Origin: Martelella sp. HB161492
Lineage (GTDB): Bacteria; Pseudomonadota; Alphaproteobacteria; Rhizobiales; Rhizobiaceae
NCBI RefSeq assembly: GCF_013184775.1
Contig: NZ_JAATVV010000009.1
Span: 124,001-188,000 of the forward strand
DNA length: 64,000 nucleotides
Direction: 5' to 3'
The translations under genes and the position numbers were made by a program. Under the pieces are notes generated by a model. That model worked only from the letters and a program-made list of their open reading frames with translations, was not told the DNA's origin and did no database searches. Positions 32,857 through 57,279 of the stretch are shown one piece after another (within the stretch, counting starts at the first letter, position 1; every line of letters begins with the position of its first letter).

Positions 32857-33297
32857 TCAGTCCGCCACCGTTTTGAGCAGGGATTCGAGGCGATCGAAGT
32901 TCTGCTCATTGGCAGCGCGCAACAGATGACTGATTGCCTCGTTTTCTTCGGTCCTGTCGAACAGCATGCGCCATGAGAGGCGCGTGCCGGCATCTTCATC
33001 GGTGAAACGCATTTCCAGGGTGAAGGCGTGGACCGGTTCATGATGGATCGCGCGGATAAACTGCCCGGCGACGACATCGGTGAACGACCAGCGATTGTCG
33101 AAATCGGTGCCGTTCGAGGCGGTCATGGTAATCAGCCAGCTGCCGCCGGGACGAAGATCAAAATCGGTGATGCTGTTGGAAAAACCGTGCGGTCCCCACC
33201 AGCGCTCCAGCATGTCGGGATCGGCAAAGGCTTCATAAAGCGTTTCGCGGGAAACGGGGAAGACCCGTTCATTGAGGATTTCGATCTTGTCAGTCAT
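32857..33297 (-). CDS. SRPBCC (AHSA1/START-like) domain protein
   Basis: A 146-residue single-domain protein of the AHSA1 branch of the START/SRPBCC superfamily. The pattern ERVFPVSRETLYEAFADPDMLERWWGP near the start, DLRPGGSWLITM, and the C-terminal TEENEAISHLLRAANEQNFD helix are characteristic. Such proteins bind hydrophobic ligands; many are paired with ArsR-type regulators, but none is seen here. It converges with creatinase, 20 bp apart. Confidence 0.85.
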   Translation of the reverse strand: MTDKIEILNERVFPVSRETLYEAFADPDMLERWWGPHGFSNSITDFDLRPGGSWLITMTASNGTDFDNRWSFTDVVAGQFIRAIHHEPVHAFTLEMRFTDEDAGTRLSWRMLFDRTEENEAISHLLRAANEQNFDRLESLLKTVAD

Positions 33298-33328
33298 GGT
33301 GCCGGTATCCTGAAATTACAGGGACAAA

Positions 33329-33500
33329 AACGGCGGGCTCTCGCCCGCGTTCAGATTGCTGAGAAACCTTGCCCTCTATCCGTCGTCATCCCCGTGACAA
33401 GCACGGGGATGACGACGGATAGAGGGGCTGCTCCACCTCAAGCATGCAATATGAATGGCTTTGTCAACAGTATGAAGGCGGACTCTCGCCCGCCTTCATA
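33329..33500. repeat. Palindromic mosaic element, copy A (short form)
   Basis: A 172-bp non-coding element between the SRPBCC start and the carB stop. The centre is a perfect palindrome with 25-bp arms and a five-base loop (33372-33426) containing the core GTCATCCCCGTG...CACGGGGATGAC. The outer arms are inverted repeats of TTCAGAYTGCTGA type (33349-33368 and 33441-33476). The two ends are hairpins of nearly the same sequence, GGCGGGCTCTCGCCCGC at the left and GGCGGACTCTCGCCCGC at the right. This copy has one core palindrome; the other three have two. Confidence 0.85.
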
Positions 33501-33532
33501 GCGCGATATCGCGCATATATCAGTCTGACAGA

Positions 33533-36500
33533 TCAGGCGTAGCTCTGCAGCGGCGCGACTTCGAGCTGGCCCTTCTTCAGCGCCCGGATCGCCTGGGCGG
33601 CGGCAAGTGCGCCGGACATGGTGGTGTAATAGGGCACCTTCTGGGTCAGCGCCGCGCGGCGCAGCGATTTCGAATCCGAGATCGTCTTGTCATTGCTGGT
33701 CGTGTTGATGACCAGCTGGACCTGACGGTTGCGGATCGCGTCCTCGATATGCGGGCGGCCTTCGCGAACCTTGTTGATCTTGATGGCGGCAATACCATTC
33801 TGCTCCAGGAAATCGCGGGTGCCGCCGGTCGCCATGACCTTGAAGCCCTCTTCGACCAGCAGCTTGATCGCCGGCAGAACCCGGGCCTTGTCTTCCTGCT
33901 TCACCGAAACGAAGACGCAGCCCTGACGCGGCAGGTCGACGCCTGCGCCCAGCTGGGCCTTGGCAAAGGCAATGGCAAAATCGCGGTCAAGGCCGATAAC
34001 CTCGCCGGTGGAGCGCATTTCCGGGCCGAGCAGCGTATCGACGCCGGGGAACCGGGCAAAGGGGAAGACGGCTTCCTTGACGGCAATGTGATCAAGCGCG
34101 CGCGGATGCGGCTTCTCCCCATATTCGCCGATCGCGTCGTCGAGCACTTCGCCGGCCATGACGCGTGCGGCGATCTTGGCGATCGGCGCACCGATGGTCT
34201 TGGCGACGAAGGGAACGGTCCGCGACGCGCGCGGATTGACCTCAAGGATGAAAATCGTGCCGTCCTTGATGGCATATTGCACATTCATCAGGCCCTTGAC
34301 GTTCAGCGCCAGCGCCAGTTCGCGGGTCTGTTCCTCAAGTTCATCAAGAATGGCGGGAGACAGCGTATGCGGCGGCAGCGAGCAGGCGCTGTCGCCGGAG
34401 TGGATGCCTGCTTCTTCAATATGTTCCATGATGCCGGCGATGAAGACGTTTTTGCCATCGCAAAGGCAGTCGACGTCCACTTCGGTGGCGTTGGTCAGGT
34501 AGCTGTCGAACAGAAGCGGGTTCTTGCCCAGCATCGTGTTGATCTGGCCCGTCTTGTCGTTCGGATAGCGCTGCTTGATGTCTTCGGTTACCAGTTCCGG
34601 TACGGTTTCCAGCAGATAGGTCGAAAGCCCGGCGTCATCATGGACGATCTGCATGGCGCGGCCACCCAGAACATAGGACGGGCGCACGACCAGCGGGAAG
34701 CCGATCTCGCCAGCGACGAGGCGCGCCTGCTCAACCGAATAGGCAATGCCGTTCTCCGGCTGGTTCAATTCGAGCTTGATCAGGAGTTTCTGGAACCGGT
34801 CGCGGTCTTCGGCGAGATCGATCATGTCCGGCGCGGTGCCGAGGATCGGAATACCGTTTTTCTCCAGCGCTTCGGCCAGCTTCAGCGGTGTCTGGCCGCC
34901 GAACTGGACAATCACACCGACCACTTCGCCGTCTTCCTGCTCGGCGCGCATGATCTCAATCACGTCTTCAGCCGTCAACGGCTCGAAATAGAGCCGGTCG
35001 GAGGTGTCGTAGTCGGTGGAAACCGTTTCCGGATTGCAGTTGACCATGATGGCTTCAAAGCCAGCATCCTTCAGCGCGAAGGCGGCATGGCAGCAGCAAT
35101 AGTCAAACTCGATGCCCTGGCCGATCCGGTTCGGGCCGCCGCCGAGAATGACGACCTTCTTGCGATTGGAGATCTGAGCCTCAGAACGGGTGGCACCGGC
35201 AAAGGGCAGTTCATAGGTCGAATACATGTAGGCCGTCGGCGAAGCGAATTCGGCCGCGCAGGTGTCGATCCGCTTGAACACCGGGCGCACACCGAGCCGG
35301 TTGCGCAGCTGGGCAACTTCCTTCGGCCGGCCATGGGTGAGGCTGGCAAGCCGCTGGTCGGAAAAGCCCATCGACTTCAGCATGCGCATATTGTCCGCAT
35401 CGTCCGGCAGGCCGTGGACGCGGAGCTTTTCTTCCATGTCGACGATGCCCTTGATCTGGGCAAGGAACCACGGGTCGATCTTGGAATGTTCGTGGACTTC
35501 TTCTTCGGAGAAACCAAGGCGGAACGCCTGGGCAACCATACGCAGGCGCTCCGGCGTCGGTGTGCCGATGGCGGCGCGTACGGCGTTGAAGGGCTCGCCG
35601 GTGTCGTAGCCGGGGATCTCGATCTCGTCGAGGCCGGTCAGACCGGTCTCCAGACCGCGCAGCGCCTTCTGCAGCGATTCCTGGAAGGTGCGGCCGATGG
35701 CCATGACCTCGCCGACCGATTTCATCGCCGTCGTCAGCGTATGTTCGGCACCGGGGAATTTCTCAAAGGCAAAGCGCGGGATCTTGGTGACGACATAGTC
35801 AATCGACGGTTCGAATGAGGCCGGCGTGGCGCCGCCGGTAATGTCGTTTTCAAGTTCGTCCAGCGTATAGCCGACGGCAAGCTTGGCCGCGACCTTGGCG
35901 ATCGGGAAGCCGGTTGCCTTCGATGCCAGAGCAGAAGAGCGCGAAACGCGCGGGTTCATTTCGATGACGACCAGACGCCCATCCTTGGGGTTGACCGCGA
36001 ACTGAACATTCGAGCCGCCGGTTTCAACGCCGATCTCACGCAGCACCGCAAGCGAGGCGTTGCGCATCATCTGGTATTCCTTGTCGGTCAGCGTCAACGC
36101 CGGTGCGACGGTGATGGAATCGCCCGTATGGACACCCATCGGATCGATATTCTCGATCGAGCAGATGATGATGCAGTTGTCCGCCTTGTCGCGAACGACT
36201 TCCATTTCATATTCCTTCCAGCCGAGGACTGATTCTTCGATCAGCACTTCGGTGGTCGGGGAGGCATCGAGGCCGGAACCGACAATCTCGAAGAATTCCG
36301 AGCGGTTATAGGCAATGCCGCCGCCCGTTCCGCCAAGCGTGAAGGAGGGACGGATAATTGCCGGCAGGCCGATCACGTCAAGCGCCTGGGCAGCAATCGC
36401 CATGGCATGGGCCATGTAACGCTGCTTGCGGTCGGTATTGCCGAGGTTCCACTTGTTTTCCAGCGCATCCAGCGCAGTGTCGAGAGCGTCGCCGGACAGC

Positions 36501-37015
36501 GTGGCCCGCAGTTCGGCGCGTTCGGCCTCGTGTTCCTGGCGATCCTTGTCCTTGATCTCGGTGGCATTGGCGAGCATCGAGCGCGGCGTTTCCAGCCCGA
36601 TCTTGGCCATGGCCTCGCGGAACAGCGCGCGGTCCTCGGCCTTGTCGATGGCATCCGGCTTGGCGCCGATCATCTCGACATTGTAGCGCTCGAGAACGCC
36701 CATGCGGCGCAGCGACAGCGCGGTGTTGAGCGCGGTCTGGCCGCCCATGGTCGGCAGCAGCGCGTCCGGGCGCTCCTTGGCGATGATCTTGGCAACGACT
36801 TCCGGCGTGATCGGCTCGACATAGGTCGCATCCGCCAGACCCGGATCGGTCATGATCGTTGCCGGGTTTGAATTGACGAGGATTACACGATAGCCCTCGG
36901 CGCGCAGCGCCTTGCAGGCCTGTGCACCGGAATAGTCAAACTCACAGGCCTGGCCGATGACAATCGGCCCCGCGCCGATAATGAGGATGGACTTGATATC
37001 TTGGCGCTTTGGCAT
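33533..37015 (-). CDS. carB: Carbamoyl-phosphate synthase, large subunit
   Basis: A 1160-residue subunit that, with CarA, makes carbamoyl phosphate from bicarbonate, glutamine-derived ammonia and two ATP for arginine and pyrimidine synthesis. Two ATP-grasp halves are seen: the first with [35 protein letters not shown] and [20 protein letters not shown], the second from [20 protein letters not shown] with [13 protein letters not shown]-terminal MGS-like allosteric domain ([20 protein letters not shown]) ends it. The length is larger than E. coli's 1073 residues because of an insertion near residue 170-210 ([19 protein letters not shown]), as in other rhizobia. I chose the MPKRQDIKS start rather than an ATG 11 codons upstream. 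Confidence 0.97.
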
Positions 37016-37363
37016 GGGTGCTTCCGTTTGTTCTCGTTCCTGCATCAAAAACCGGCACGGAGAACCGGCCGGCTTGAGCGTCGTCGCAAATTTCTAGGCT
37101 AGGAGGGCCTTATAGGCAAAACATTGCCCGAACGGAACCCCGAAAATGGCCGAAATTGGGGATTGGGCAGGCAAATGCCGAACCGAAGCGTATCGGATCG
37201 GGACTGAAACCGGGCGACTTTCCGTGAAAGTCGGATCTGACAAGCCTTGCGGCAAAGGGATGTGCAGACTTGATCTGCGTGAAAAGAATCACATTTTGCC
37301 AAATCACAAATGAACCAAATCACCGCCAGCTACGTTTACAGAGCAAACAAGAGGAGTAACAAC

Positions 37364-37486
37364 ATGATGGAATATCTGCCTCTCATCGCTTTTCAGTCGC
37401 TGTTTGCCGCGGCCGGCCTCGGCGTCCTCTACCGCATCGTCGCAACGAAAAACGCCGAAGCGGGGCGCGCGCGCCACCTGCGCTGA
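37364..37486 (+). CDS. Small hydrophobic protein, 40 residues, unknown
   Basis: A 40-codon open frame, MMEYLPLIAFQSLFAAAGLG and on, ending RARHLR. Residues of about 4-24 form one transmembrane helix, followed by a basic tail, so it is probably a small membrane protein with the tail in the cytosol. Support for translation: a strong ribosome site AAGAGGAG seven bases before the ATG and an intrinsic terminator 20 bp after the stop. I know no family. The preceding gap (37016-37363) is divergent from carB and would hold both promoters. Confidence 0.6.
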   Translation: MMEYLPLIAFQSLFAAAGLGVLYRIVATKNAEAGRARHLR

Positions 37487-37505
37487 TCCCGCATGCGCTA
37501 TCGCA

Positions 37506-37528
37506 TGGCAGGTCTTTCCGGCCTGCCA
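37506..37528 (+). terminator. Intrinsic terminator after the small-protein gene
   Basis: TGGCAGG pairs with CCTGCCA around a nine-base loop, followed by TTTTTC, 20 bp beyond the 40-codon frame. Confidence 0.85.
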
Positions 37529-37599
37529 TTTTTCTCGGCTTGACGCGAAGGCATCATCATCCCATCTCAGCCTCACCTGACCATTGAAGGTTTCGCGTC

Positions 37600-38277
37600 A
37601 TGCTCCTTGTCCATTATCTCGAAGATTCCCGTGCGCACCGCATTCTCTGGCTGCTGGAGGAGCTTGGTGTTGACTACAGCATTCGCGTCTATCGTCGCGG
37701 AGAGGATATGAGCGCCCCGGATGAACTCAAGCGGGTGCATCCGCTCGGAAAGTCGCCGGTGATCGAGGATGGTGACCGTGTCATTGCCGAGAGCGGCGCA
37801 ATCGTCGAATATCTGCTTGATACCTATGGGATGTCCTCCGGTCTCAGGCCGGCTGCCGGATCTGAAGCGCTGCAGGATTACCGCTACTGGCTGCATTATT
37901 CGGAAGGTTCGGCCATGCCGCTTCTGGTGATGAAGCTCGTCTTTCTGAAATTGCCGGAGCGCGTGCCATTCCTGATGCGGCCTGTGGTCTCTGCTGTGTC
38001 ACGCGGGGTGATGAAGGCGCTGACCGATCCGCAGCTCAAGGCGCATGGGGCCTTCTGGGAAGAGACGCTCGATCGCAGGGGCTGGTTTGCCGGTGACGGT
38101 TTTTCCGCGGCCGATATCATGATGAGTTTTCCTGTTGAGGTCGGCATGGCGCGGGTGCCTTTTGAAAGACGGCCGCAGGCCGTCCTGTCGTGGCTGGCGG
38201 CCATTCACGCGCGGCCCGGCTATCGCCATGCGATCCAGCGCGGCGGCGCCTATCGCTATGGGACGAAGGCAGAGTAG
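37600..38277 (+). CDS. Glutathione S-transferase family protein
   Basis: A 225-residue GST. The N-terminal thioredoxin-like domain has HYLEDSRAHRILWLLEELGV and the cis-Pro and Glu-Ser glutathione contacts in HPLGKSPVIEDGDRVIAESGAI. The C-terminal all-helical domain includes the N-capping FSAADIMMSFPVE motif. The helix LLVMKLVFLKLPERVPFLMR is characteristic of the fungal/bacterial GST subgroup related to MAPEG-free soluble enzymes. Substrate unknown. A MATE exporter follows 85 bp downstream on the same strand and could act with it in detoxification. Confidence 0.92.
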   Translation: MLLVHYLEDSRAHRILWLLEELGVDYSIRVYRRGEDMSAPDELKRVHPLGKSPVIEDGDRVIAESGAIVEYLLDTYGMSSGLRPAAGSEALQDYRYWLHYSEGSAMPLLVMKLVFLKLPERVPFLMRPVVSAVSRGVMKALTDPQLKAHGAFWEETLDRRGWFAGDGFSAADIMMSFPVEVGMARVPFERRPQAVLSWLAAIHARPGYRHAIQRGGAYRYGTKAE

Positions 38278-38362
38278 CTTTCGCAACAGAAAGAGGATAT
38301 GGGAGGAGGCCGCTCGGGCCCCGATATTGCCTGGCCCCTGCGTGTCAGTTTCAGGTGCTCTC

Positions 38363-39757
38363 ATGTCTGTCACAATGCCTCCTGCGCAAGCAGCCGGTCA
38401 TTCGTGGTCTCGCCATTTTCGCGAAACGCTTTCCCTTGGTATCCCGCTTATCGGTGCGCAGCTTGCCCAGCAGGGCATCAACACCACCGATATTGTCATT
38501 CTGGGCCAGTTGAGCGCGATCGATCTCGCCGCCGCTGTTATTGCCACCCAGTATTTCTTCACGCTGTTCATCTTCGGCTGCGGTCTGGCGATCGCGGTGA
38601 TGCCGATGGTGGCCCAGGCCTATGGGCGGGGCGATGAAGTGGCCGTCAGACGGTCACTGCGCATGGGCATGTGGGCATCGATTGCCTTCGGCCTCATGGT
38701 GCTGCCGCTGTTCTGGTATTCCGAGCCGATCCTGTTGGCCATCGGTCAGGAGCCGGATGTGGCGGCAAGGGCAGCGATCTATTGCCGTATCGTCGCCTTT
38801 GCGATGTTTCCGGCGCTGCTGTTCAATGTGCTCAGAAGCCTTGTCAGCGCCACGGGCCGGGCCGGTATCGTGCTCTGGGCAACGATCCTGATGCTGCTTT
38901 TGAATGCGGCACTCGCCTATATCGTCGTGCTTGGGCATTTCGGTCTGCCGCGTTTCGGCATTGCCGGCGCTGCCGTGGTTGCCTTCTCCGTGCAGCTTGC
39001 CGGCTTCCTGTTCCTGGCGATCTATATTGAGCGCGATGCGGAAATGCGGCGCTATCAGCTTTTCGTCCGCTTCTGGCGGCCCGACTGGGGTGCCCTGCGC
39101 GAAGTCGTGGCGCTCGGTCTGCCGATCGGTGTTGCCGTTCTCGCCGAGGTGTCGATGTTCACCGTCGCTTCGCTGATGATGGGCCGTTTCGGCGCCATTC
39201 CCCTTGCCGCCCACGGCATAGCCATGCAGCTTGCGGCGATCACCTTCATGGTGCCGCTCGGCCTGTCTCAGGCCGGCACCGTGCGGGTCGGCGTGTTTCA
39301 CGGGCAGGGGGATTTTGCCAATCTGAAGCGGGCCGCCATTGCCGTTGTCGTGCTCGGCCTTTGCTACGCCATGATCGGCACCATGGCTTTCGCCTTTCTG
39401 CCCGCACAGCTCGCCAGCCTGTTCATCGATACCAAGCTGCCCGAAGCCGCCGCCGTCATCGCCTATGCCGTGCCGCTGATCATCATTTCCGGCTTGACGC
39501 AGCTGGTCGATGGCACGCAGACGATGATGAGCGGTCTTTTGCGCGGGCTGAAGGATACGCGCATACCGATGGTTCTGGTGCTGATTTCCTATTGGGGCAT
39601 TGGTCTCGGCTGTGCATTTGTTCTGGCATTTCCGTTTGATCTCAAAGGGATAGGCATCTGGATCGGCTTCATGTTCGGTCTTGCGTCCGCGGCTGCGATG
39701 CTTGCCGCGCGCCTTTTCATTCTGCTGCGGCGCGAGCGTAACGCGCTTGTTGCCTGA
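38363..39757 (+). CDS. MATE-family multidrug efflux transporter (NorM-like)
   Basis: A 464-residue inner-membrane exporter with twelve transmembrane helices in two MatE domains. The first domain includes GIPLIGAQLAQQGINTTDIVILGQL and GCGLAIAVMPMVAQAYGRGD; the second includes MGRFGAIPLAAHGIAMQLAAITFMVPLGLSQA as two separate parts of the family pattern and ends with DGTQTMMSGLLRGLKDTRIP. It would extrude cationic drugs or metabolites against Na+ or H+. The ATG at 38363 was chosen from the homology start; the frame is open upstream inside the GST gene. Confidence 0.92.
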   Translation: MSVTMPPAQAAGHSWSRHFRETLSLGIPLIGAQLAQQGINTTDIVILGQLSAIDLAAAVIATQYFFTLFIFGCGLAIAVMPMVAQAYGRGDEVAVRRSLRMGMWASIAFGLMVLPLFWYSEPILLAIGQEPDVAARAAIYCRIVAFAMFPALLFNVLRSLVSATGRAGIVLWATILMLLLNAALAYIVVLGHFGLPRFGIAGAAVVAFSVQLAGFLFLAIYIERDAEMRRYQLFVRFWRPDWGALREVVALGLPIGVAVLAEVSMFTVASLMMGRFGAIPLAAHGIAMQLAAITFMVPLGLSQAGTVRVGVFHGQGDFANLKRAAIAVVVLGLCYAMIGTMAFAFLPAQLASLFIDTKLPEAAAVIAYAVPLIIISGLTQLVDGTQTMMSGLLRGLKDTRIPMVLVLISYWGIGLGCAFVLAFPFDLKGIGIWIGFMFGLASAAAMLAARLFILLRRERNALVA

Positions 39758-39802
39758 GGTCTGTGTCGCGGCTAATCTCGGCGCTCTGATGGGAGGATAA
39801 CG

Positions 39803-40399
39803 ATGCGTAACGACATCATCTTCGGGGCTTTGCTACCCTATCTGACCTTTGTGCTCGGTCAGCATTTCGGATTGTCGGTCGTGCATGCGCTGGCGCTCGG
39901 ATCCCTGTTTCCGATTGCGACGATCATCGTGTCCTATGTCGTCAGCCGCCGGATCGCCGCTGTCAGTATCATCACGCTTGCTGCAGCGCTGGCCTCGCTG
40001 GCGGGCAGTCTCTGGTTCAACAGCGCCTATCTGGCGTTGTTGAAGAATTCGCTGATTACCGGTCTGATCGGGCTTGTCTTTCTCGGTTCGCTGTTTGCGC
40101 CGCGTCCGCTGATCTTCTTTCTCGCCGCCGAGGGAAACCGGGAGAAGCAGGAAAAATACGAAGGCTTCTGGCAGACCCGTCCCGGCTTCCGCCGCACCAT
40201 GCGGGAAATGACGGGCATCTGGGCGGCCGTCCTGCTTGGTGAGGCTATCCTGCGGGCGGTTCTGATCCCGCTTCTGCCGATCGATATTTTTCTGGTTGTC
40301 AGTGAGGTGATGTGGATTGCCGTTTTCGCCGGCATGATGACCTGGAGCATCCGCTACGGCAAACGCCGGTCGAAACAGCTCGAAGATCAATCTTCATGA
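39803..40399 (+). CDS. VC0807-like integral membrane protein
   Basis: A 198-residue protein with about six hydrophobic segments (LPYLTFVLGQHFGLSVVHAL, IIVSYVVSRRIAAVSIITLA, and others) and a short charged loop (AAEGNREKQEKYEGFWQTR). The pattern resembles the VC0807 family of inner-membrane proteins of unknown function. It is 45 bp after the MATE gene with GGGAGGAT as the ribosome site, and may be cotranscribed. Element B begins directly after its stop codon. Confidence 0.75.
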   Translation: MRNDIIFGALLPYLTFVLGQHFGLSVVHALALGSLFPIATIIVSYVVSRRIAAVSIITLAAALASLAGSLWFNSAYLALLKNSLITGLIGLVFLGSLFAPRPLIFFLAAEGNREKQEKYEGFWQTRPGFRRTMREMTGIWAAVLLGEAILRAVLIPLLPIDIFLVVSEVMWIAVFAGMMTWSIRYGKRRSKQLEDQSS

Positions 40400-40401
40400 A
40401 A

Positions 40402-40655
40402 AAGGGCGCCAAAGCGGCGCCCTCAGGCTGCTGACAAAGCCATTCAGATTGCCTGTTTGGGGTGGTGTAGCCGCCCCCTCTGTCGTCATCCCCGTGCTCG
40501 TCACGGGGATCCCGGCTCTTCTGGGCATTGGATTATAAGAGTCTTTCGCCGCGCGGACGCGCGTCGGCTGGATGCCTGCGACAAGCACAGGCATGACAAC
40601 AGCAAAAAGGGGGCGAGGTTTGCCTGCAGTCTGAGGGCGCCAAAGCGGCGCCCTT
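40402..40655. repeat. Palindromic mosaic element, copy B
   Basis: A non-coding element of about 250 bp between convergent genes. Two core palindromes start 84 bp apart: ATCCCCGTGctcgtCACGGGGAT at 40488-40510 in type, and ATGCCTG...CAGGCAT at 40572-40594, separated by a GC-rich spacer with CCGCGCGGACGCGC. The arms have TCAGGCTGCTGACAAAG at the left and TGCAGTCTGA at the right. Both ends carry the same hairpin, GGGCGCCAAAGCGGCGCCC, at 40404-40422 and 40635-40653, in direct orientation. Confidence 0.85.
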
Positions 40656-40680
40656 CCTCAATTCACGGATCTGTCAGGCT

Positions 40681-41889
40681 TCAGGCGCGCTCGGAAAGAA
40701 GGGCCTCGCCCTTCTGTTCGCGCACCATGTTGATGAAGCGGCGGAAGAGGTAGTGGCTGTCCTGCGGGCCGGGGGAAGCCTCGGGGTGATGCTGGACCGA
40801 AAAGACCGGCTTGCCGACAAGGCGAAGGCCGCAGTTCGAACCGTCAAACAGCGAGACGTGGGTTTCTTCCACGCCATCCGGCAGAGAAGCCTTGTCCACG
40901 GCAAAGCCGTGATTCATCGACACGATCTCGACCTTGTTGGTGGTGAAATCCTTGACCGGATGGTTGGCGCCATGATGACCCTGATGCATCTTCACCGTGG
41001 TGCCGCCAAGCGCCAGTGCCAGCATCTGGTGACCGAGGCAGATGCCGAAGACCGGCAGGCCGCTGTCGATCAGCGCACGAATGACCGGAACCGCATATTC
41101 GCCGGTTGCTGCCGGGTCGCCGGGGCCGTTGGACAGGAAAATCCCATCGGGCTTCAGCGCCAGGATGTCTTCGGCCGAGGTCTTGGCGGGAACCACCGTG
41201 ACCTTGCAGTCCAGACCGGAAAAGAGACGCAGGATATTGCGCTTGACGCCGTAGTCGATGCAGACGACGTGATAGGCCGCATCCGTGTCTTCAAGGTTGC
41301 CATAGCCTTCGTTCCAGACCCAGGGCTTTTCGCGCCACTGCGAGGACTGGCCGGAGGTCGCCTCGATCGCCAGATCCAGACCTTCAAGGCCGCTCCAGGC
41401 TTTGGCTTCCGTCTTCAGCGCTTCGATATCGAAATGGCCGGAAGGATCGTGGGCGATCACGGCATTCGGCGCGCCATGTTCGCGGATCCAGGCCGTCAGC
41501 GCACGCGTATCGATGCCCGAAAGGCCGATAATGCCACGTGCCTTCAGCCACTGGTCGAGATGCTCGCTGGCGCGATAATTCGACGGCTCCGTAATATCGG
41601 CCTTGAAGATCGTGCCGACCGCGCCGCGTCGTGCGGCCGGTGTCAGGTCTTCGATATCTTCGGCATTGGTGCCGACATTGCCGATATGGGGAAAGGTGAA
41701 AGTGACGATCTGCCCGAGATAGGAGGGATCGGTGAGGATTTCCTCATAGCCGGTGAGGGCAGTATTGAAGCAGACTTCCGCCTGCACCCGGCCCGTCGCG
41801 CCCATTCCCTTGCCGTAGATAACCGTACCGTCTGCGAGAACCAGTACGGCGGTTGGCTTGTTGATCGTCCATGCGGATTGGCTAGTCAT
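40681..41889 (-). CDS. carA: Carbamoyl-phosphate synthase, small (glutaminase) subunit
   Basis: A 402-residue subunit that releases ammonia from glutamine and passes it to CarB. The N-terminal domain opens with VLVLADGTVIYGKGMGATG and includes CFNTALTGYEEILTDPSY. The C-terminal class I amidotransferase domain has the nucleophile in VFGICLGHQMLALALGG and the His/Glu pair in FSVQHHPEASPGP. I prefer the second of two adjacent ATG codons (41889) because AAAGGA is too near the first. carB lies 3.7 kb away on the same strand, with plus-strand genes between. Confidence 0.96.
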   Translation of the reverse strand: MTSQSAWTINKPTAVLVLADGTVIYGKGMGATGRVQAEVCFNTALTGYEEILTDPSYLGQIVTFTFPHIGNVGTNAEDIEDLTPAARRGAVGTIFKADITEPSNYRASEHLDQWLKARGIIGLSGIDTRALTAWIREHGAPNAVIAHDPSGHFDIEALKTEAKAWSGLEGLDLAIEATSGQSSQWREKPWVWNEGYGNLEDTDAAYHVVCIDYGVKRNILRLFSGLDCKVTVVPAKTSAEDILALKPDGIFLSNGPGDPAATGEYAVPVIRALIDSGLPVFGICLGHQMLALALGGTTVKMHQGHHGANHPVKDFTTNKVEIVSMNHGFAVDKASLPDGVEETHVSLFDGSNCGLRLVGKPVFSVQHHPEASPGPQDSHYLFRRFINMVREQKGEALLSERA

Positions 41890-42213
41890 CATCGTCCTTT
41901 GCGCTTCCAGCTTATCCTTGCCGCTTGTTCTTTGCGGTGCGGATCGCCATATATTGGCCGCATGATCAGGGGCGTCCGGCTGCTTTTGCAGCGGCGCGTG
42001 GCAAACACGACCAATTCTGATGCGGTTGCCGGAAAATAGTCAAACCCGGCTTGCGGGTCAATTGCCGAGGGTGCACAGTGCGCCGATAGACAAAAAAACT
42101 TCGCTGACGAGAACATTTGATTTGATCGTGGACGCTGGATTCGCTAAACGCCCCCGCTTGTTCACGAGGAAACGCCGCTGCAATCAACCCCCCGGCTTTC
42201 CCAGGAGATATGT

Positions 42214-47270: not shown

Positions 47271-47526
47271 AAAACCCGGCTGAAAGGCCGGGTTCAGACT
47301 GCTGACAAAGGCATTCATATTGCTTGTTTGAGGTGGAATAGCCTCAACCTCCGTCGTCATCCCCGTGCTTGTCACGGGGATTCAGATACATAAGGCATTG
47401 AATAGACAGGGCTTTTCTCCGCGCGGACGCGCACCCGCTGGATGCCTGTGACAAGCACAGGCATGACGTCAGTGAAGGGGGTGAGGTTTGTCAACAGTCT
47501 GAACCCGGTCGAGAGGCCGGGTTTTT
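47271..47526. repeat. Palindromic mosaic element, copy C
   Basis: A 256-bp non-coding element between the convergent rpoD and HXXEE genes. Core palindromes lie at 47359-47381 (CCCCGTG type) and 47442-47464 (GCCTGTG type), starting 83 bp apart, with CCGCGCGGACGCGC between. The left arm TTCAGACTGCTGACAAAGGC and beyond is fully preserved (47293-47345); the right arm is short (47487-47503). The end hairpins AACCCGG...CCGGGTT lie at 47273-47294 and 47502-47523, with an A-run outside the left and a T-run outside the right, so each could terminate one of the converging genes. Confidence 0.87.
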
Positions 47527-48235: not shown

Positions 48236-48260
48236 TATAATCTCCTGACGGTTGAAAAAG

Positions 48261-48274
48261 TCAACATGTGTTGG
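48261..48274. promoter_or_regulatory. Palindromic operator 2 in the TetR / HXXEE intergenic region
   Basis: TCAACATGTGTTGG, with inner palindrome CAACA-TG-TGTTG, 30 bp upstream of the tetR start. It matches operator 1 in the AAGTCAACA-nn-TGTTG pattern. Confidence 0.68.
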
Positions 48275-48303
48275 CATAATTGCAAAAAAAGGGAGAAGAA
48301 CAG

Positions 48304-48855: not shown

Positions 48856-48962
48856 CAGGCTTTGGAAAGGGCGGGGAGCCGGTTACGGACATGCCGCGCC
48901 AAGGGTGGCGGCCGCGTTGCCGGAACACGCTGCTTCTGGGATCATGATGAAAATTCGGATGA

Positions 48963-49619
48963 CTATCCGACGATCAGCTGCTGGCCTGTTCCCGCAGTGC
49001 TGTCGCCGCTAAACACCGCTTTGTCATCCTCCATCCACACCTTGCCTTCGGCAAAGCATTTGAGCACTGCCGGATAGAGCTGGTGCTCGACGGTGAGGAT
49101 ACGGGCGGCGAGCGTATCGGCGTCGTCGCCGGGGATGATCGGCACGGCGGCCTGGCCGATGACCGGGCCTTCATCCATGCCTTCGGTGACGAAATGCACG
49201 CTGCAGCCCGCAATCCGCATGCCGGAATCGATCGCACGCTGATGTGTGTGCAGGCCCGGGAAGAGCGGCAGCAGCGAGGGATGGATATTGATGATCCGTC
49301 CTTCATGGGCGCGGATGAAATCGCCGGACAGAATCCGCATGAAGCCGGCAAGGCAGATGATGTCTGGATTGAGTGCGGCAAGCGCCGTCAGCATGGCGGC
49401 TTCATGCGCTGCCTTGCTGTCAAACTGCTTGCGTGGGAAGACGAATGTCTCAAGGCCAAGCGCTGCAGCTTTCTGAAGGCCGCCCGCATCAGGCTTGTCG
49501 GCAATGACGGCGACGATTTCGGCCGGAAAATCCGGCGCCTGGCAGGCTTCGGCAAGCTTGACCATATTGGAGCCGCTTCCCGAGATGAAGACAACGACCC
49601 GTTTTTTCGACCCGCTCAT
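48963..49619 (-). CDS. purN: Phosphoribosylglycinamide formyltransferase
   Basis: A 218-residue cytosolic enzyme that transfers a formyl group from 10-formyl-tetrahydrofolate to GAR, the third step of purine synthesis. The fold opens [20 protein letters not shown]. The catalytic region has the Asn-x-His pair in [20 protein letters not shown] and the catalytic Asp in [20 protein letters not shown]. Its ATG overlaps the purM stop by 4 bp (ATGA), so the two enzymes, two consecutive-branch steps, are translationally coupled. Confidence 0.95.
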
Positions 49620-50689
49620 AGATTGATCATGCCCTTGTAGACGGTCCCTGCCATATCGTCCGTGCGCGGCACGATCTGGCCAAGCCTGAAGGCGGTTTCA
49701 CCGCTTCCGGCCAGAACCTCGAGCACAGAATCAAGCTTGTCTGCCGGGCAGACACCGATCATGCCGACGCCGCAGTTGAAGGTGCGCAGCATTTCCGCCG
49801 GTGCAACACCGCCGGTGCGCGCCAGCCACGAGAAGACGGCCGGAACCGGAATGGCCGCAAGGTCAATCTCGGCGGAAAGGTGGGCCGGCAGGACGCGCGG
49901 GATATTTTCCGGGAAACCGCCGCCGGTGATATGGGCAAGTGCCTTGATGCCGCCGGTCTGGCGGATGGCCGCCAGCAGCGGCTTCACATAGATCTTTGTC
50001 GGTTCCAGCAGCGCTTCACCAAAGGTCTTGCCCGGTGCAAAGGGGGCGGGCGCGAGCCAGCCGATATTGGCCAGTTCGGCAATGCGGCGCACCAGCGAGA
50101 AGCCGTTGGAATGGACCCCGGAAGAGGCAAGGCCAAAGATCACATCGCCGACGGCGAGGTCTTCTGACGGCAGCAGGGTACCGCGTTCGGCGGCGCCCAC
50201 GGCAAAGCCGGCAAGGTCATAGTCGCCCTTGGAATACATGCCTGGCATTTCGGCCGTTTCACCACCAATGAGCGCGCAGCCGGCCTGACGGCAGCCCTCG
50301 GCAATGCCTTCGACAATGGCCGCGCCCTGATCGGGATCAAGAGCACCGGTGGCGAAATAATCGAGGAAGAACAGTGGTTCGGCACCCTGTACCACCAGAT
50401 CGTTGACGCACATGGCGACGAGATCTATGCCGACGGTATCATGCTTGCCGGCTTCGATCGCGATCTTGAGCTTGGTGCCGACGCCGTCATTGGCGGCAAC
50501 GAGAACCGGATCGGAAAAGCCGGCGGCCTTGAGGTCGAACAGGCCGCCGAAGCCGCCGATCTCACTGTCTGATCCGGGGCGGCGGGTCGATTTCACGGCT
50601 GGCTTGATCTTTTCGACCATCAGGCTTCCGGCATCGATATCGACACCGGCGTCGCGATAGGTCAGTCCGTTCTGTCTCGTCTCGGTCAT
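49616..50689 (-). CDS. purM: Phosphoribosylformylglycinamidine cyclo-ligase (AIR synthetase)
   Basis: A 357-residue ATP-dependent enzyme that closes the imidazole ring of AIR, the fifth step of purine synthesis. Family motifs: the opening [72 protein letters not shown] and [17 protein letters not shown]. The start at 50689 matches the family; the frame stays open further upstream without homology. It is first in the purM-purN pair. Confidence 0.96.
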
Positions 50690-50846
50690 GGGCGTATCCC
50701 TCATGAAAATATCAGAAGTGGGCATTGCATGGCGCGCAAGGTGTTGCAAGAGTGCGACCGCCTTCGCAGGGCGATATTGACAGTTTGAACGGCGCTTTTG
50801 CGGCCCCGGCAGCCAAAGTCGGCGGATTTTTCGCAAAATCGCTGCT

Positions 50847-51057
50847 CTATCGTCCCGGCAGCAGCGTCGTCTGAAGTTTCTGGTCCGGCCTTTTCAACGT
50901 TGTCAGCGTGAGGTGAAGCCCGTCTTCGGCAATCGTTTCAGCGCCGGCTGGTCGGGCCAGGCGGCGGGCAAAGGCTGATGCCCTTCTCCGTCAGTGCCCC
51001 GCTGAGGTGAAAAACGGCCAGCAGGATTGCTGTTGCCGTGTCTGCTTTTTCGACCAC
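50847..51057 (-). pseudogene. Possible decayed small gene with one frameshift
   Basis: In the 621-bp gap between purM and the permease gene, the minus strand shows a GTG start with GGAGCAGG ahead and about 26 coding-like codons (VVEKADTATAILLAVFHLSG and on). The reading then continues coherently only after a one-base shift (LARPAGAETIAEDGLHLTLT and on) to a TAG at 50847. No family is recognised. It may be a relic or chance. I see nothing else in the gap apart from likely promoters for purM and the permease. Confidence 0.2.
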
Positions 51058-51310
51058 TATGCCTGCTCCGGATCTGCTGACATGCCGTCGTGATGGGAAC
51101 GTGTTATCGCCGTCCCGTCTTTGTCAACAGCTGCGCTGCGAGGTCACCGATGCGCAGGGCCCTAGGCCGCAGGGCGATGCGCGGGTTTGTGCACACTGTC
51201 CACAGCCTCGCCTTTCTCTTACCTTATTCCTTTGCCCGGCGCTGATAAGGACTGTTGGAAGGTGGCGGGTTTGCCGGTATAAGCCAGAAAGGTTGATCGG
51301 GGAGTTATCC

Positions 51311-52456
51311 ATGTCGGAACGCATGACAGGCGCAGGCCTGAAAAGACAGCTTTATTTCTGGCTGCTATTTGTCGTCGGTGTGGCAATTTTCCTGTTCGTG
51401 TTTCGCAGCATCTTGCTGCCTTTCGTTGCTGGCATGGCGCTGGCCTATTTCCTGGATCCGCTGGCCGACCGGCTGGAGCGGCTGGGACTTGGCAGGGCGA
51501 CGGCAACCAGCCTGATCATGCTGCTGTTCATCGTGCTGTTCATCGCAGTCCTGCTGGTGGTCATTCCACTGCTTGTCAGCCAGGCGGCGGAGGTCGCACA
51601 GAAGCTGCCGCAATATCTCGCCCAGATCGAGCATTTCGTGCAGACATCGCGGCTTCACAACCTCGTTGACTGGGGCAACAGCCAGCTCTCGGAACTGAGC
51701 CAGAATATCGGCAAGGTGCTGTCGAGCGGCGTTTCCTTCGCGGGTACGCTTTTCGGCGGTATCTGGAGTTCGTCGATGGCGGTGATCAACGTGGTTTCCT
51801 TCGTCGTGCTGACGCCGGTTATCGCCTTTTACCTCTTGCTGGACTGGGACCGGATGATCGCCAAGCTCGACCGCTGGACCCCGCGCGCCTATGTCAAGGA
51901 TGTTCGTTACCTGACAACCGAGATCAACAAGGTCATATCCGGCTTTGTCCGCGGGCAGGGTTCGCTCTGCATCATTCTCGGTGTCTATTATGCCGGAGCG
52001 CTGTCGCTTGCCGGGCTTAATTTCGGTGCTCTGATCGGTCTTTTCGCCGGCTTTGTCAGCTTCATTCCCTATCTCGGCTCGTCCTCGGGCTTTGTCCTGT
52101 CGATGGGGGTGGCGCTGGTGCAGTTCTGGCCGGATTATGGCCGGGTCGCCATCGTGCTCGGCATCTATCTGTTCGGCCAGTTTCTGGAAGGCAATGTCCT
52201 GCAGCCGAAGCTGGTCGGATCAAGCGTACGCCTGCATCCGGTCTGGCTGATGTTCGCTCTGTTCGCCTTTGGCGTCTTGTTTGGCTTTGTCGGACTTCTC
52301 GTTGCCGTTCCTGTTTCGGCGGCTGTCGGTGTTCTGGTGCGCTTTGCCATTGACCGTTATCTGGAAAGCGATCTTTACTGGGGCGATAACGAACAGAGAT
52401 CTGCCGCGACGCAACTGGCCGATGGCCAGGAGGGAAAGGCAGAGGGCAAACCCTGA
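51311..52456 (+). CDS. AI-2E/PerM family transporter
   Basis: A 381-residue integral membrane protein of the PerM/TqsA (UPF0118) family with seven to eight helices: an N-terminal hairpin (LLFVVGVAIFLFVFRSILLP), an extended middle segment (LVSQAAEVAQKLPQYLAQIE) and a C-terminal bundle with VVSFVVLTPVIAFYLLLDWD and FVSFIPYLGS as signatures. Members export autoinducer-2 or act as Na+/H+ antiporters; the substrate here is unknown. The ATG at 51311 follows GGGGAG. It ends 1 bp before hdaA, a conserved rhizobial pairing. Confidence 0.9.
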   Translation: MSERMTGAGLKRQLYFWLLFVVGVAIFLFVFRSILLPFVAGMALAYFLDPLADRLERLGLGRATATSLIMLLFIVLFIAVLLVVIPLLVSQAAEVAQKLPQYLAQIEHFVQTSRLHNLVDWGNSQLSELSQNIGKVLSSGVSFAGTLFGGIWSSSMAVINVVSFVVLTPVIAFYLLLDWDRMIAKLDRWTPRAYVKDVRYLTTEINKVISGFVRGQGSLCIILGVYYAGALSLAGLNFGALIGLFAGFVSFIPYLGSSSGFVLSMGVALVQFWPDYGRVAIVLGIYLFGQFLEGNVLQPKLVGSSVRLHPVWLMFALFAFGVLFGFVGLLVAVPVSAAVGVLVRFAIDRYLESDLYWGDNEQRSAATQLADGQEGKAEGKP

Positions 52457-52457
52457 A

Positions 52458-53147
52458 ATGGAAAAGCGCAGTCAGCAATTGCCGCTTGATCTTGGCGCGC
52501 ACGAAATGTCGGGCCGCGATGATCTGCTGGTCTCGCCGTCGCTGGCACCGGCGGTTGAGATCATCGATCACTGGCCGGACTGGCCGGGACCGGTTGTCGT
52601 GCTTGTCGGCCCGCCGGGCTCCGGAAAGTCGCATATCGCGAATATCTGGCGTCTTTTGAGCGGGGCGACCGATGCCGGTGCTGCTGTTGTCTCCGGTCGG
52701 GTGCTGACCCCGGCAAAGGCCTTTCTGGTTGAGGATGCAGATCGGATCGGCATTGATGAAACAGCGCTTTTCCATCTCATCAACACGGTTCGCCAGCATC
52801 AGAGCCATCTGCTTTTGACGGCGCGCGGCATGCCGTCATCCTGGAAGGTGAAACTGCCGGATCTCCGCTCCCGTCTCGCCGGCGCCACGATCGTGGAGAT
52901 CGGCGCGCCGGATGATGTGCTGCTGTGGCAGGTTGTCTTCAAGCTGTTTGCCGATCGCCAGATCGAGGTCGATGACCGGGTCGTTGCCTATATTATCGCC
53001 CGTATGGAGCGCTCGCTGGAGGCGGCGCGGCTGATCGTCGAGGCGATCGATCGCTATGCTCTGGCCAAGGGCAGACGGATCACGCGATCTCTGGTGGCGG
53101 AGGTGATGGAGACGCTTGCGCTTGATGGTGACCGCAGGCAGGGCTGA
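52458..53147 (+). CDS. hdaA: DnaA-related regulatory protein HdaA
   Basis: A 229-residue AAA+ protein equal to the ATPase core of DnaA without its DNA-binding domain. With the sliding clamp it stimulates DnaA-ATP hydrolysis, preventing re-initiation. The N-terminal clamp-binding motif is QLPLDL (residues 6-11). The Walker A is GPPGSGKSH. The Walker B region is degenerate (AFLVEDADRI), as in other Hda proteins, and the sensor II region lies in RSLEAARLIVEAID. The position beside the PerM-type gene and ppk is the usual alphaproteobacterial one. Confidence 0.93.
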   Translation: MEKRSQQLPLDLGAHEMSGRDDLLVSPSLAPAVEIIDHWPDWPGPVVVLVGPPGSGKSHIANIWRLLSGATDAGAAVVSGRVLTPAKAFLVEDADRIGIDETALFHLINTVRQHQSHLLLTARGMPSSWKVKLPDLRSRLAGATIVEIGAPDDVLLWQVVFKLFADRQIEVDDRVVAYIIARMERSLEAARLIVEAIDRYALAKGRRITRSLVAEVMETLALDGDRRQG

Positions 53148-53275
53148 GCGCCGTGCCCGCCATCGGTGTTCAGGCGCTGCTTCTTACGCGGACATGGCGG
53201 TCTGTCATCGTTCCGTCGCCAAGTTCGGATAGTCGGTTGCAAAAGTTGAATATTTGGAGAGGTTGACTTTAGCTT

Positions 53276-55459
53276 ATGGAAAACACGGCTTCGATGATGT
53301 CCGGCGATGGTTTCACAGCTGGTGGTGAGGATCTGCGCACAAGCCCGCAGCGCTTCGTCAATCGCGAATTTTCCTGGCTGCAGTTCAATCGCCGTGTGCT
53401 TGAGGAAACCCTCAATCCGGCCCATCCGCTTCTGGAGCGGGTGCGCTTCCTGTCCATCTCAGCCGCCAATCTCGATGAATTCTTCATGGTCCGTGTGGCG
53501 GGGCTGGAAGGCCAGGTGCGCCAGGGCGTGACGATGATTTCCGCCGATGGCAAGACGCCGGCCGAACAGCTTTCCGATATTCTGAGCGAGGTCGACAATC
53601 TGCAGATGGAGCAGCAGGCCGCCCTTGCTGTGCTGCAGCAATATCTGACCAATGAAGGCATCCAGATCGTCCGGCCCGGCGCGCTTTCCGAAGAGGACCG
53701 GATCTCGCTGACGAGCGAATTCGAACAGGGGATCTTTCCAGTTCTGACGCCCCTGTCGATCGATCCGGCGCATCCCTTTCCCTTTATTCCCAATCTCGGC
53801 TTTTCCATGGGCCTGCAACTGGTCAGCCGGGTTGGCCGCAATCCGATGAATGCGCTGTTGCGCATGCCGCCGGCACTGAACCGCTTCGTGCGCCTGCCGG
53901 ATATTGATGGCGTCATCCGTTTCATCACCATGGAAGATCTGATCGGCATGTTCATTCACCGGCTCTATCCGGGCTATGAGGTGCAGGGCTATGGCACGTT
54001 CCGCATCATCCGCGACAGTGATATCGAAATCGAGGAAGAAGCCGAAGATCTGGTGCGCTATTTCGAGACGGCGCTGAAGCAGCGCCGTCGCGGCTCGGTG
54101 ATCCGGGTCGAGACGGATTCGGAGATGCCGGCTTCGCTGCGCCGTTTCGTGGTGGAGGAACTTGGCGTCGGCGAAGACCGCGTTGCCGTTCTGCCCGGGC
54201 TTCTGGCGCTCAACACCTTGTCGGAAATCACCAAGGTTCCGCGGCTGGATCTTCTGTTCAAGCCGTTCAACCCGCGCTTTCCAGAGCGGGTGCGCGAGCA
54301 TGTCGGCGACAGTTTCGCCGCCATCCGCGAGAAGGACTTTGTCGTCCATCACCCTTATGAATCCTTCGACGTCGTGGTGCAGTTCCTGATCCAGGCCGCG
54401 CGCGACCCGAATGTTCTGGCGATCAAGCAGACGCTTTACCGCACCTCCAATGACAGCCCGATCGTGCGTGCGCTGATCGACGCGGCAGAGGCCGGCAAAT
54501 CGGTGACGGCGCTGGTGGAGCTGAAGGCGCGCTTCGATGAGGAGGCCAATATCCGCTGGGCGCGCGATCTGGAACGCGCCGGCGTGCAGGTGGTTTTTGG
54601 CTTCGTTGAACTGAAAACCCATGCCAAGCTGTCCATGGTGGTCCGGCGCGAAGACGGCAATCTGAGGACCTATTGCCATCTGGGCACCGGCAATTACCAC
54701 CCGATCACGGCGAAGATCTATACGGACCTGTCCTATTTCACCTGCAATCCGAAGATTGCCCATGACGTCGCAGAAGTGTTCAACTTCATCACCGGCTATG
54801 GCGAGCTGGAAGAGAATATGAACCTCGCCGTCTCGCCCTATACGCTGCGCCCGCGCATCCTCCAGCATATCGAGGAGGAGATCGAGCATGTGAAGAACGG
54901 TCTGCCCGGCGCGATCTGGATGAAGATGAATTCGCTGGTTGATCCGAAGATTATCGATGCGCTTTATCGGGCCAGCGGCGAAGGCGTCGAGATCGACCTG
55001 GTGGTGCGCGGCATCTGCTGCCTCAGGCCGCAAGTTCCGGGGCTGTCGGAGAATATCCGGGTGAAATCGATTGTCGGCCGGTTCCTGGAGCACAGCCGTA
55101 TCTACTGTTTCGGCAATGGTCACGGCCTGCCGTCAGAAAATGCGCGGGTCTATCTCGGCTCGGCAGATCTGATGCCGCGCAACCTTGACCGGCGTGTCGA
55201 AGTGATCGTCCCTTTGACAAATCCGACTGTGCATGAACAGGTGCTCTCGCAGATCATGCTGGGCAATGTGATTGACAACCAACAGAGCTACGAGATACTC
55301 CCGGATGGTACTTCCCGCCGGATCGAACCGCGTGAGGGCGAGGAGCCGTTCAACGCGCAGGAGTATTTCATGACCAATCCCAGCCTTTCTGGCCGTGGTG
55401 AGGCGCTGAAATCAAGTGCGCCAAAGCTGATCGCCGGACGTATGTCTGGCCCACAATAA
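53276..55459 (+). CDS. ppk: Polyphosphate kinase 1
   Basis: A 727-residue membrane-associated enzyme that polymerises the gamma-phosphate of ATP into polyphosphate. The N-terminal domain opens with [19 protein letters not shown] and contains [18 protein letters not shown]. The catalytic phospholipase D-like domains contain the autophosphorylated His in [19 protein letters not shown] and a second His in NFHRL-type context around [20 protein letters not shown]. Length is as expected. ppx follows 13 bp later, forming the classical ppk-ppx operon. Confidence 0.96.
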
Positions 55460-55472
55460 TAGCCGGGTCTCA

Positions 55473-56993
55473 ATGGTGGAATCTGAAGCACAGGGACGGC
55501 TTGCGGGCATTTCCCCTGTCTCCGTGGTCGATATCGGATCAAACTCTGTTCGTATCGTCATTTATGAAGGACTGTCGCGTGCACCGACAATCCTGTTCAA
55601 TGAAAAGGTGTTGTGCGGGCTGGGCCGCGGCATTGCCGTCACTGGCAAGATGGATGAGGACGGCGTGGAGCGGGCGCTCAAGGCGCTGAAACGCTTCGTC
55701 GCGCTTTCCCGTCAGGCCGGCGCCGTAAAGATGTATGTGCTGGCCACGGCTGCTGCCCGTGAGGCTTCGAACGGGCCCGGCTTCATCTCGGCTGCAGAAA
55801 CGATCCTGGGCGAGGAAATTCGTGTCCTCACAGGCCGGGAGGAAGCACTTTATTCCGCCTATGGCATTATCTCCGGTTTTTTCGAGCCGGACGGGATTGC
55901 CGGCGATCTTGGCGGCGGCTCGCTGGAACTTATCGATATTTCCGGAAACGCATCGGGGCAGGGGATCACGCTGCCACTCGGCGGCATCAGGCTTTCGGAG
56001 CTTTCGGAAGGGTCGCTGGTCAAGGCGCGCGCTTTTGCGCGTAAACAGGTCAAGAAGGTCGAATTTCTGGAAACCGGCAAGGACCGCATCTTTTACGCCG
56101 TTGGCGGGACCTGGCGTAATATTGCCCGCCTGCATATGGAGATGACCGGTTATCCGCTGACCATGATGCAGGGCTACGAGCTGTCGACGGAAACGGTTCT
56201 CGCTTTTCTCGACCGGATTGGCGAAGACGAGGACCAGAAGGATCCGGCCTGGTCGGTGATCTCCAAGAACCGCCGTCAGCTGTTGCCCTTCGGCGCGATT
56301 GCCATGCGCGAAGTGCTGAATATCATGCAGCCGAAAAGCGTCTGTTTCTCCTCGCAGGGCGTGCGCGAGGGCTGGCTCTATTCGCTTCTGAATGTCGAGG
56401 AAAAGCGGCAGGACCCGCTGATCGTCGCGGCGCAGCAACTGGCGATCCTCAGGGCGCGTTCGCCGCGTCATGCCAGTGAAATTGCCGAATGGACTGGCCG
56501 CATGGTGCGCCGTTTCGGCATTGAGGAGACCACGGAGGAGACGCGTTACCGTGAGGCAGCCTGTCTGCTCGCCGATATCAGCTGGCGCGCGCATCCCGAT
56601 TTTCGCGGATCTCAGTCGCTGAACGTGATCGCGCATTCATCGCTCGTCGGCATCACCCATCCCGGTCGCGTCTTCATCGCGCTGGCCAATTACTACCGCT
56701 TCGAAGGGTTGCGCGACGATCACATGACCGATGGTCTCGCTGCGATCACCACCCCGATCTTCCTGGAGCGGGCGAAGCTTCTGGGCGGGCTCCTGCGGGT
56801 CGCCTATCTCTTCTCGGCGTCCATGCCCGGTATCGTCGGCGATCTGGATTTCGTCCCGAGCCAGAATCCGGATCTCGATCTGGAGCTGGTCGTGCCGGAA
56901 CGTTACGCCGATTTTATCGGTGAGCGTGTCGAGGGCCGGCTGCAGCAGCTGGCCAAGCTGACCAACAAGCGCCTGGCCTTTGCCAGCGCCTGA
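55473..56993 (+). CDS. ppx: Exopolyphosphatase / guanosine pentaphosphate phosphatase
   Basis: A 506-residue member of the Ppx/GppA branch of the actin/Hsp70-like ATPase fold. Phosphate-loop motifs are VVDIGSNSVRIVIYEG near residue 15, ATAAAREASNG, and GDLGGGSLELIDI. The C-terminal part, beyond the two actin-like domains, resembles an HD-type helical domain (LADISWRAHPDFRG). It removes terminal phosphate from polyphosphate, opposing ppk, or hydrolyses pppGpp; the sequence alone does not decide. Element D follows its stop. Confidence 0.93.
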   Translation: MVESEAQGRLAGISPVSVVDIGSNSVRIVIYEGLSRAPTILFNEKVLCGLGRGIAVTGKMDEDGVERALKALKRFVALSRQAGAVKMYVLATAAAREASNGPGFISAAETILGEEIRVLTGREEALYSAYGIISGFFEPDGIAGDLGGGSLELIDISGNASGQGITLPLGGIRLSELSEGSLVKARAFARKQVKKVEFLETGKDRIFYAVGGTWRNIARLHMEMTGYPLTMMQGYELSTETVLAFLDRIGEDEDQKDPAWSVISKNRRQLLPFGAIAMREVLNIMQPKSVCFSSQGVREGWLYSLLNVEEKRQDPLIVAAQQLAILRARSPRHASEIAEWTGRMVRRFGIEETTEETRYREAACLLADISWRAHPDFRGSQSLNVIAHSSLVGITHPGRVFIALANYYRFEGLRDDHMTDGLAAITTPIFLERAKLLGGLLRVAYLFSASMPGIVGDLDFVPSQNPDLDLELVVPERYADFIGERVEGRLQQLAKLTNKRLAFASA

Positions 56994-57009
56994 GGGTTGT
57001 TTTCGGACC

Positions 57010-57275
57010 TGAAGAGCGCCCGGGTGTCGCACCCGGGCTGAGCTTGCTGACAAAGTCTAAGCCCCTCTCTAACGTCATGCCTGTGCTTGTCACAGGCATC
57101 CAGCCGACGCGCGTCCGCGCGGCGAAAGACTCCGCTTATTCAAATCCTTAAGAGTATGGATCCCCGTGACAAGCACGGGGATGACGACGGAGGCAATGGC
57201 TATTCTACCCCAAACAGACAAGCTGAATGACTTTGTAAGCAGTCTGAAGCCCGGGTGTCGCATCCGGGCTCTTCG
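57010..57275. repeat. Palindromic mosaic element, copy D (inverted orientation)
   Basis: A 266-bp element between convergent ppx and the dehydrogenase gene. Core palindromes lie at 57077-57099 (GCCTGTG type) and 57160-57182 (CCCCGTG type), again 83 bp apart but in reverse order relative to copies B and C, so the element is inserted the other way round. The right arm is the complete one here (57193-57247). End hairpins GCCCGGGTG-tcg-CACCCGGGC (57018-57038) and GCCCGGGTG-tcg-CATCCGGGC (57249-57269) are direct repeats with one mismatch. Confidence 0.87.
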
Positions 57276-57279
57276 CGTT

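Follow-up and report, generated by a model that had tools for sequence, protein, structure and literature searches.

The window analysed here, i.e. the whole 64,000-nucleotide stretch of Martelella sp. HB161492 (contig NZ_JAATVV010000009.1, positions 124,001 to 188,000), carries four copies of one gene-less element of about 207 bp with 15-bp terminal repeats (CAGAYTGCTGACAAA), one copy being a 123-bp deletion form. The flanks of these and further copies show that the target of this element is a terminator-type hairpin without common sequence, that insertion takes place at the foot of the stem, and that the duplicated segment is the whole hairpin plus about 1 bp on each side, as a rule in direct orientation. 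The best explanation overall, which is very probably correct, is that the element is a miniature inverted-repeat transposable element (MITE) moved in trans by a transposase of the IS1182 family, which would insert it at the feet of hairpins and duplicate the hairpin. The length of a target duplication is normally regarded as a fixed signature of the transposase; here, it floats with the secondary structure of the target, which could provide a simple assay for structure-guided transposition by DDE transposases and for cruciform extrusion in living cells.

Hairpins flanking the element and empty sites

The four window elements are listed below as sites 1 to 4, trimmed to their true ends (CAG...CTG; two decayed ends read GAG and ATG). 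The T preceding and the A following the element are assigned to the target because one copy (L015) has C on both sides, where its target has C. The site 1 form retains a single inner palindrome. Handles beginning with L and G denote loci and genomes, G007 being a sister of the Martelella genome studied here; no strand is given for hairpin copies.

33330..33351: left hairpin copy (target duplication), site 1; T-tract here for leftward (carB) transcription
33348-33333, minus strand: terminator-like site inside the left copy, site 1 (terminator consensus scan)
33352..33474, plus strand: 123-bp deletion form, site 1
33475..33496: right hairpin copy, site 1; matches the left copy at 19/22 positions
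40403..40423: left hairpin copy, site 2; occurs once at the empty sites of G007 (L076) and G012 (L077)
40424..40633, plus strand: full-length element, 210 bp, site 2
40634..40654: right hairpin copy, site 2; 21/21 versus the left copy
47273..47294: left hairpin copy, site 3, downstream of an rpoD-type sigma-70 gene; resembles a terminator on the minus strand
47295..47501, plus strand: full-length element, 207 bp, site 3
47502..47523: right hairpin copy, site 3; 19/22 versus the left copy
57016..57039: left hairpin copy, site 4, downstream of a ppx-type gene
57040..57246, minus strand: full-length element, 207 bp, site 4; interior inverted relative to sites 2 and 3; same insertion in G007 (L100)
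57247..57270: right hairpin copy, site 4; 21/24 versus the left copy

A BLAST search of the own genome with the site 2 element gave 42 rows, two of which are uncounted, one overlapping a counted copy and the other adjoining the copy in L019. The copy number in this genome is a lower bound because 40 of the 82 first-look candidates were scored. The examined set comprises 41 copies from the own genome (37 fetched places and the four window copies) and 21 from G007, where the places listed are likewise a lower bound and one of them (C22:580611-580836) is left out. Paired, locus-specific hairpins in direct orientation flank 58 of these 62 copies (38/41 in the own genome, 20/21 in G007). The script scored 55 of these pairs; the other three (L033, L035 and L044), in which it misplaced or missed an end, were called by eye. 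At the right end of L035, the last ~13 bp of the element seem to occur a second time, just ahead of the right hairpin.

The flanking repeats are not due to chance, since 54 of the 60 scored copies exceed 6.0, the 99th percentile of the repeat score among 3540 mismatched left/right flank pairs. A score above 10 was reached by nine of the mismatched pairs: seven associate an own-genome copy with a G007 copy and are taken as the same insertion, and the remaining two associate L026 with L037. These two loci are different places in this genome whose hairpins have an identical sequence. A further 19 places, which include probable chance pattern matches, yielded eight more copies with a paired repeat score above 6, one weaker case (L231) and ten places that either had no acceptable pair or failed to show both ends; this result is optimistic because the repeat score helped to pick the ends.

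Three window sites were compared with other members of the genus, and two of them have a single hairpin in sister species. At site 2, G007 and G012 carry one hairpin flanked by an A-tract and a T-tract; in the ten other genus members, BLAST left the hairpin unaligned, and inspection by eye found one similar hairpin in G003 and one different hairpin in G008. At site 3, downstream of rpoD, G007, G012, G004 and G002 each have a single hairpin without any element end. The same position harbours one hairpin of different sequence in G003, and one hairpin followed 3 nt further by an element-like start (2 mismatches) in G006. In G005 (L095) and G008 (L098), two hairpins surround an element with similar ends and another interior, so that these elements occupy the same rpoD terminator hairpin, with duplication. 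G010 and G011 display two hairpins with poor ends between them, the element start adjoins the hairpin in G009 with no second hairpin in the ~270 bp beyond, and site 3 gave no match in G001. At site 4, G007 has the same insertion, and alignment with the other genus members failed.

These data agree with most of what an earlier sequence-only reading of the window had put forward. The four elements lie where it had placed them, with the inner palindromes it described and nearly identical hairpins on the left and right of each. Its proposal, insertion into intrinsic terminators with duplication of the entire hairpin, is supported both by the paired hairpins, which it had expected at most copies genome-wide, and by the one-hairpin empty sites that it had suggested seeking in a sister strain, found at 40 kb (G007 and G012) and at 47 kb (G007, G012, G004 and G002).

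Full-length insertion sequences and span of the duplication

Three IS1182-family loci combining MITE-type ends with similar hairpins on both sides were found in relatives: L046 and two broken ones, L054 and L059. The open reading frame of the L046 transposase (1465-2850) is intact and encodes 461 amino acids; the protein matches NF033551 (478 bits, cut-off 270) and the Pfam families PF13751, PF05598 and PF01609. The transposase has no match among the PDB sequences at E 0.1. When the L046 protein was used as query against genome contigs, the best 80 of 532 relatives were taken, the corresponding loci being 71-100% identical to the query. Of these, 66 entered the flank script, 14 partial matches being excluded, and 16 were then dropped (14 reach a contig end, two lack a second end), which left 50 usable insertion sequences (ISs). 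These measure 1484-1566 bp and carry the CAGACTGCTGACAAAC consensus at both ends around one transposase gene. The type of transposase and the terminal inverted repeats around a single gene place them in the IS1182 family, and two plasmid copies bear the annotation 'IS1182 family transposase'.

Duplicated hairpins flank 41 of the 50 ISs, and the repeats are letter-perfect at 30 of the 41. The 99th percentile of 2450 mismatched flank pairs is 8.5; 40 of the 41 score at least 15.5, and L204 scores 9.0. The full-length IS is found in other Rhizobiaceae and in other Alphaproteobacteria, the hosts of the 41 including Rhizobium, Mesorhizobium, Sinorhizobium, Shinella, Sphingomonas and Nitrospirillum. 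On plasmid pRL11 of R. ruizarguesonis RCAM 1026 (L219), the IS lies between two 24-bp hairpins. Plasmids of strains TP15 and RCAM2802 (L221 and L222) supply the exact empty site: the two flanks, joined through a single 24-bp hairpin, are found there without one difference over 100 bp; a third plasmid (L223) has one hairpin and diverged flanks. For a second IS (L220), one-hairpin sites were recognized by eye in three plasmids, with a point change in the hairpin. A target within a coding region was considered at L211 and could not be shown.

The terminal consensus of the MITE (55 copies) and that of the 50 ISs are identical at 15 of 15 positions. Because these ends and the duplication of hairpins are common to the full-length ISs, the gene-less element can be regarded as a MITE of an IS1182-type IS: it has identical ends, no transposase gene and the same target behaviour. 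The MITE would be mobilized in trans by the IS transposase.

The span of the duplication was examined by a hairpin search that ignored the repeat, the repeat edges being compared with the outermost G-C pair of the hairpin. The repeats measure 17-30 bp for the MITE (n = 55) and 18-28 bp for the IS (n = 41). In both sets and on both sides, the commonest edge lies 1 bp outside the outermost G-C pair (MITE: left 31/55, right 27/55; IS: left 21/41, right 23/41). The hairpin edge falls within 4 nt of the repeat edge for 46/55 MITE and 35/41 IS targets, and hairpin and duplication lengths are correlated within these subsets (r = 0.82 and 0.78, respectively). Nearly all the repeats are bordered by an A- or T-tract (51/55 and 39/41, respectively). 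The single figure of about 20 bp proposed earlier is too simple, the range being 17-30 bp with edges at the stem foot.

Several observations weigh against this explanation. When all rows are included, the correlation is r = 0.56 for the MITE and r = 0.16 for the IS, the latter not being significant (p = 0.33). In the six IS misfits, stems extend symmetrically through paired A/T-tracts; among the nine MITE misfits, five extend likewise through paired tracts, in three the hairpin search settled on another hairpin and one is off-centre. Four of the 62 MITE copies are unpaired (L009, L129, L016 and L042), and in each of them the left end or the left hairpin is damaged, L129 of G007 seeming to be the same place as L009. 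Letter-perfect repeats occur in only 11 of the 55 MITE pairs, as expected if the insertions are old, and the inverted orientation beats the direct one in six of the 55 (L126, L028, L024, L030, L034 and L120), perhaps through later flipping of the palindrome. The nine other ISs have, by eye, unlike hairpins on the left and right, those on the left of L164 and on the right of L210 being poor; they are read, conjecturally, as products of recombination between IS copies. A search at E 0.001 detected no IS1182 transposase in the own genome; this assembly is a 52-contig draft and may hide one because repeated ISs can drop out at contig ends. Finally, it is from the pattern of insertion that we infer recognition of a cruciform.

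Proposed mechanism, alternatives and possible consequences for termination

In the mechanism proposed, the IS1182-family transposase would recognize an extruded hairpin or four-way junction (cruciform), the two 3' ends of the transposon would attack the 5' foot of the hairpin, one per strand, and gap repair would then give two hairpins flanking the element. As the 5' feet face each other at the junction, the stagger in linear DNA would equal the hairpin length; such attack at opposite 5' feet implies that the target, and not the enzyme, would set the length of the duplication. The copying of whole hairpins suggests that the transposase reads the shape of DNA and not its sequence. We lean slightly towards a DDE transposase that reads DNA shape and attacks the opposite 5' feet, insertion rebuilding a far-side hairpin with its T-tract in both directions.

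Alternatively, transcription and not a DNA cruciform might designate the target, by way of a paused RNA polymerase, an RNA hairpin or an R-loop formed at terminators. This reading appears unlikely but deserves to be kept in mind. Indeed, an A- or T-tract abuts the repeat at 51/55 MITE targets (background 6.6%) and at 39/41 IS targets (background 7.0%). However, the two points of attack lie symmetrically about the hairpin on both strands, which is what a four-way DNA junction would lead one to expect, two of the 41 IS targets are devoid of tract (3-of-5 rule), and IS1272 also uses stem-loops outside terminators (PMC4923244, PMC5678879).

It is improbable that the element is merely a Rhizobium RIME repeat that resembles a MITE. 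Its inner ~115 bp, a two-palindrome core, does resemble repeats of Sinorhizobium and Rhizobium replicons (69.9-77.9% over 53-69% of the query for the 20 listed of 74 records), and the Sinorhizobium repeats may be RIMEs. Rhizobium-specific intergenic mosaic elements (RIMEs) are cited in PMC2573895. The element matches 70 of 297 genomes of the family, no more than two candidates having been scored in each, and the listed matches outside genomes G000 and G007 are inner units only. Nevertheless, seven such repeats, inspected by eye over 120 bp on each side, have neither CAGAYTGCTGACAAA ends nor paired hairpins, whereas the ends and target behaviour of the element are those of the IS. These seven loci led us to discard the view that RIME-like repeats at large are instances of this MITE. 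The core at window positions 40483-40597 looks as if a RIME-like unit had been placed inside IS ends. An Rfam scan of the window, at gathering score, assigned the element to no family.

Very improbably, transposition would be ordinary, with a fixed stagger, and terminators would simply be the places where insertions survive. Intergenic terminators are tolerant and open frames converge towards three of the four window sites, but survival cannot set the borders of a duplication, and the repeat edges fall at the stem foot on both sides, with lengths of 17-30 bp, including at 41 of 50 ISs from many genera. The presence of hairpins at nearly all copies examined might also suggest that they belong to the element and are exchanged by recombination, an idea that deserves practically no credence since the hairpins are specific to each locus and pair only within it (L026 and L037 sharing one sequence), and the same hairpin is already present in empty sites, the exact ones contradicting it outright.

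Under the preferred explanation, i.e. insertion at the hairpin feet with duplication of the hairpin, the fate of the terminators differs from what the sequence-only reading had assumed. Each converging gene was thought to keep its own terminator; in fact, what comes after the near hairpin is element sequence (CAG...), and the T-tract is found only 3' of the far hairpin. In a terminator consensus scan, matches were confined to the far-side hairpin, with two at site 1 (0.1 expected), one at site 3 (0.3 expected) and none around sites 2 and 4; the scan thus supports the far-side reading weakly. The genes adjoining sites 1 to 4 are, from Pfam matches, carB, carA, rpoD and ppx, whose transcription would run through the element. 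A far-side hairpin with its T-tract would be preserved in both directions, the flanking transcripts gaining the element as 3' untranslated region, and the insertion would be mild because this hairpin and T-tract survive. Gene ends could in this way serve as targets for a transposon with termination left intact. The predicted fold of site 2 (z = -7.6), in which hairpin copies and element ends base-pair mutually, says nothing about function, since it follows from the inverted ends and repeated palindromes. Elsewhere in the window, two tandem ar15 alphaproteobacterial small RNA genes, the sole Rfam matches, occupy 22922-23231 on the minus strand (RF02345).

Comparison with known systems

Like IS1272/TnSha1, an IS1182-family system that targets stem-loops, often terminators, without consensus in primary sequence (Furi 2016, PMC4923244; Wan 2017, PMC5678879), the present elements combine an IS1182-family transposase with stem-loop targets. 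IS1272 removes all or part of the target stem-loop and generates no target duplication (same sources, Furi et al. reporting loss of part of the hairpin), whereas here the hairpin is kept on both flanks and duplicated, so that stem-loop replacement of the IS1272 type does not apply. The sites fit instead 'pathway b' of Fig 13 of Wan 2017 (PMC5678879), a hypothetical branch in which attack at the 5' feet duplicates the whole stem-loop; IS1272 itself takes the replacing pathway.

Thirteen other IS1182-family loci from relatives were tried for ends and flanks. The five with clear ends (L047 and L049-L052) showed no paired hairpins. Apparent 4-bp duplications were found at L047, L050 (3/4 matching), L051 and L052 (4 bp at the centre of a palindrome), plus L061 by eye (TTAA), and may be due to chance because the end search rewards a match. 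These distant ISs share the transposase family with the present ones, their transposases being 27-30% identical to that of L046 over the aligned stretch, and differ from them by the apparent 4-bp duplications and the lack of any paired hairpins seen. Hairpin duplication may thus be the mark of a subgroup of the IS1182 family, the 80 loci retained above sharing 71-100% identity with their query.

The Sinorhizobium repeats that may be RIMEs resemble the two-palindrome core of the element; the core-like repeats inspected differ from it in having neither IS-type ends nor hairpin pairs (7/7). Like the bacterial MITEs reviewed in PMC10969869, the element is short, gene-less, intergenic and present in many copies, with IS-type ends; it differs from them in that the duplicated target is an entire hairpin of variable length. 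An annotation of ISs restricted to short duplications would probably miss such elements. Among the papers listed, the titles and abstract openings of the open-licence literature surveyed, ISfinder being outside its scope, contain no mention of whole-hairpin duplication as an observed outcome. Judged against these sources, the targeting of hairpins by the IS1182 family is known, and what appears to be new here is the observed duplication of the whole hairpin, which provides natural evidence for a stem-loop duplication branch previously drawn for this family as a hypothesis.
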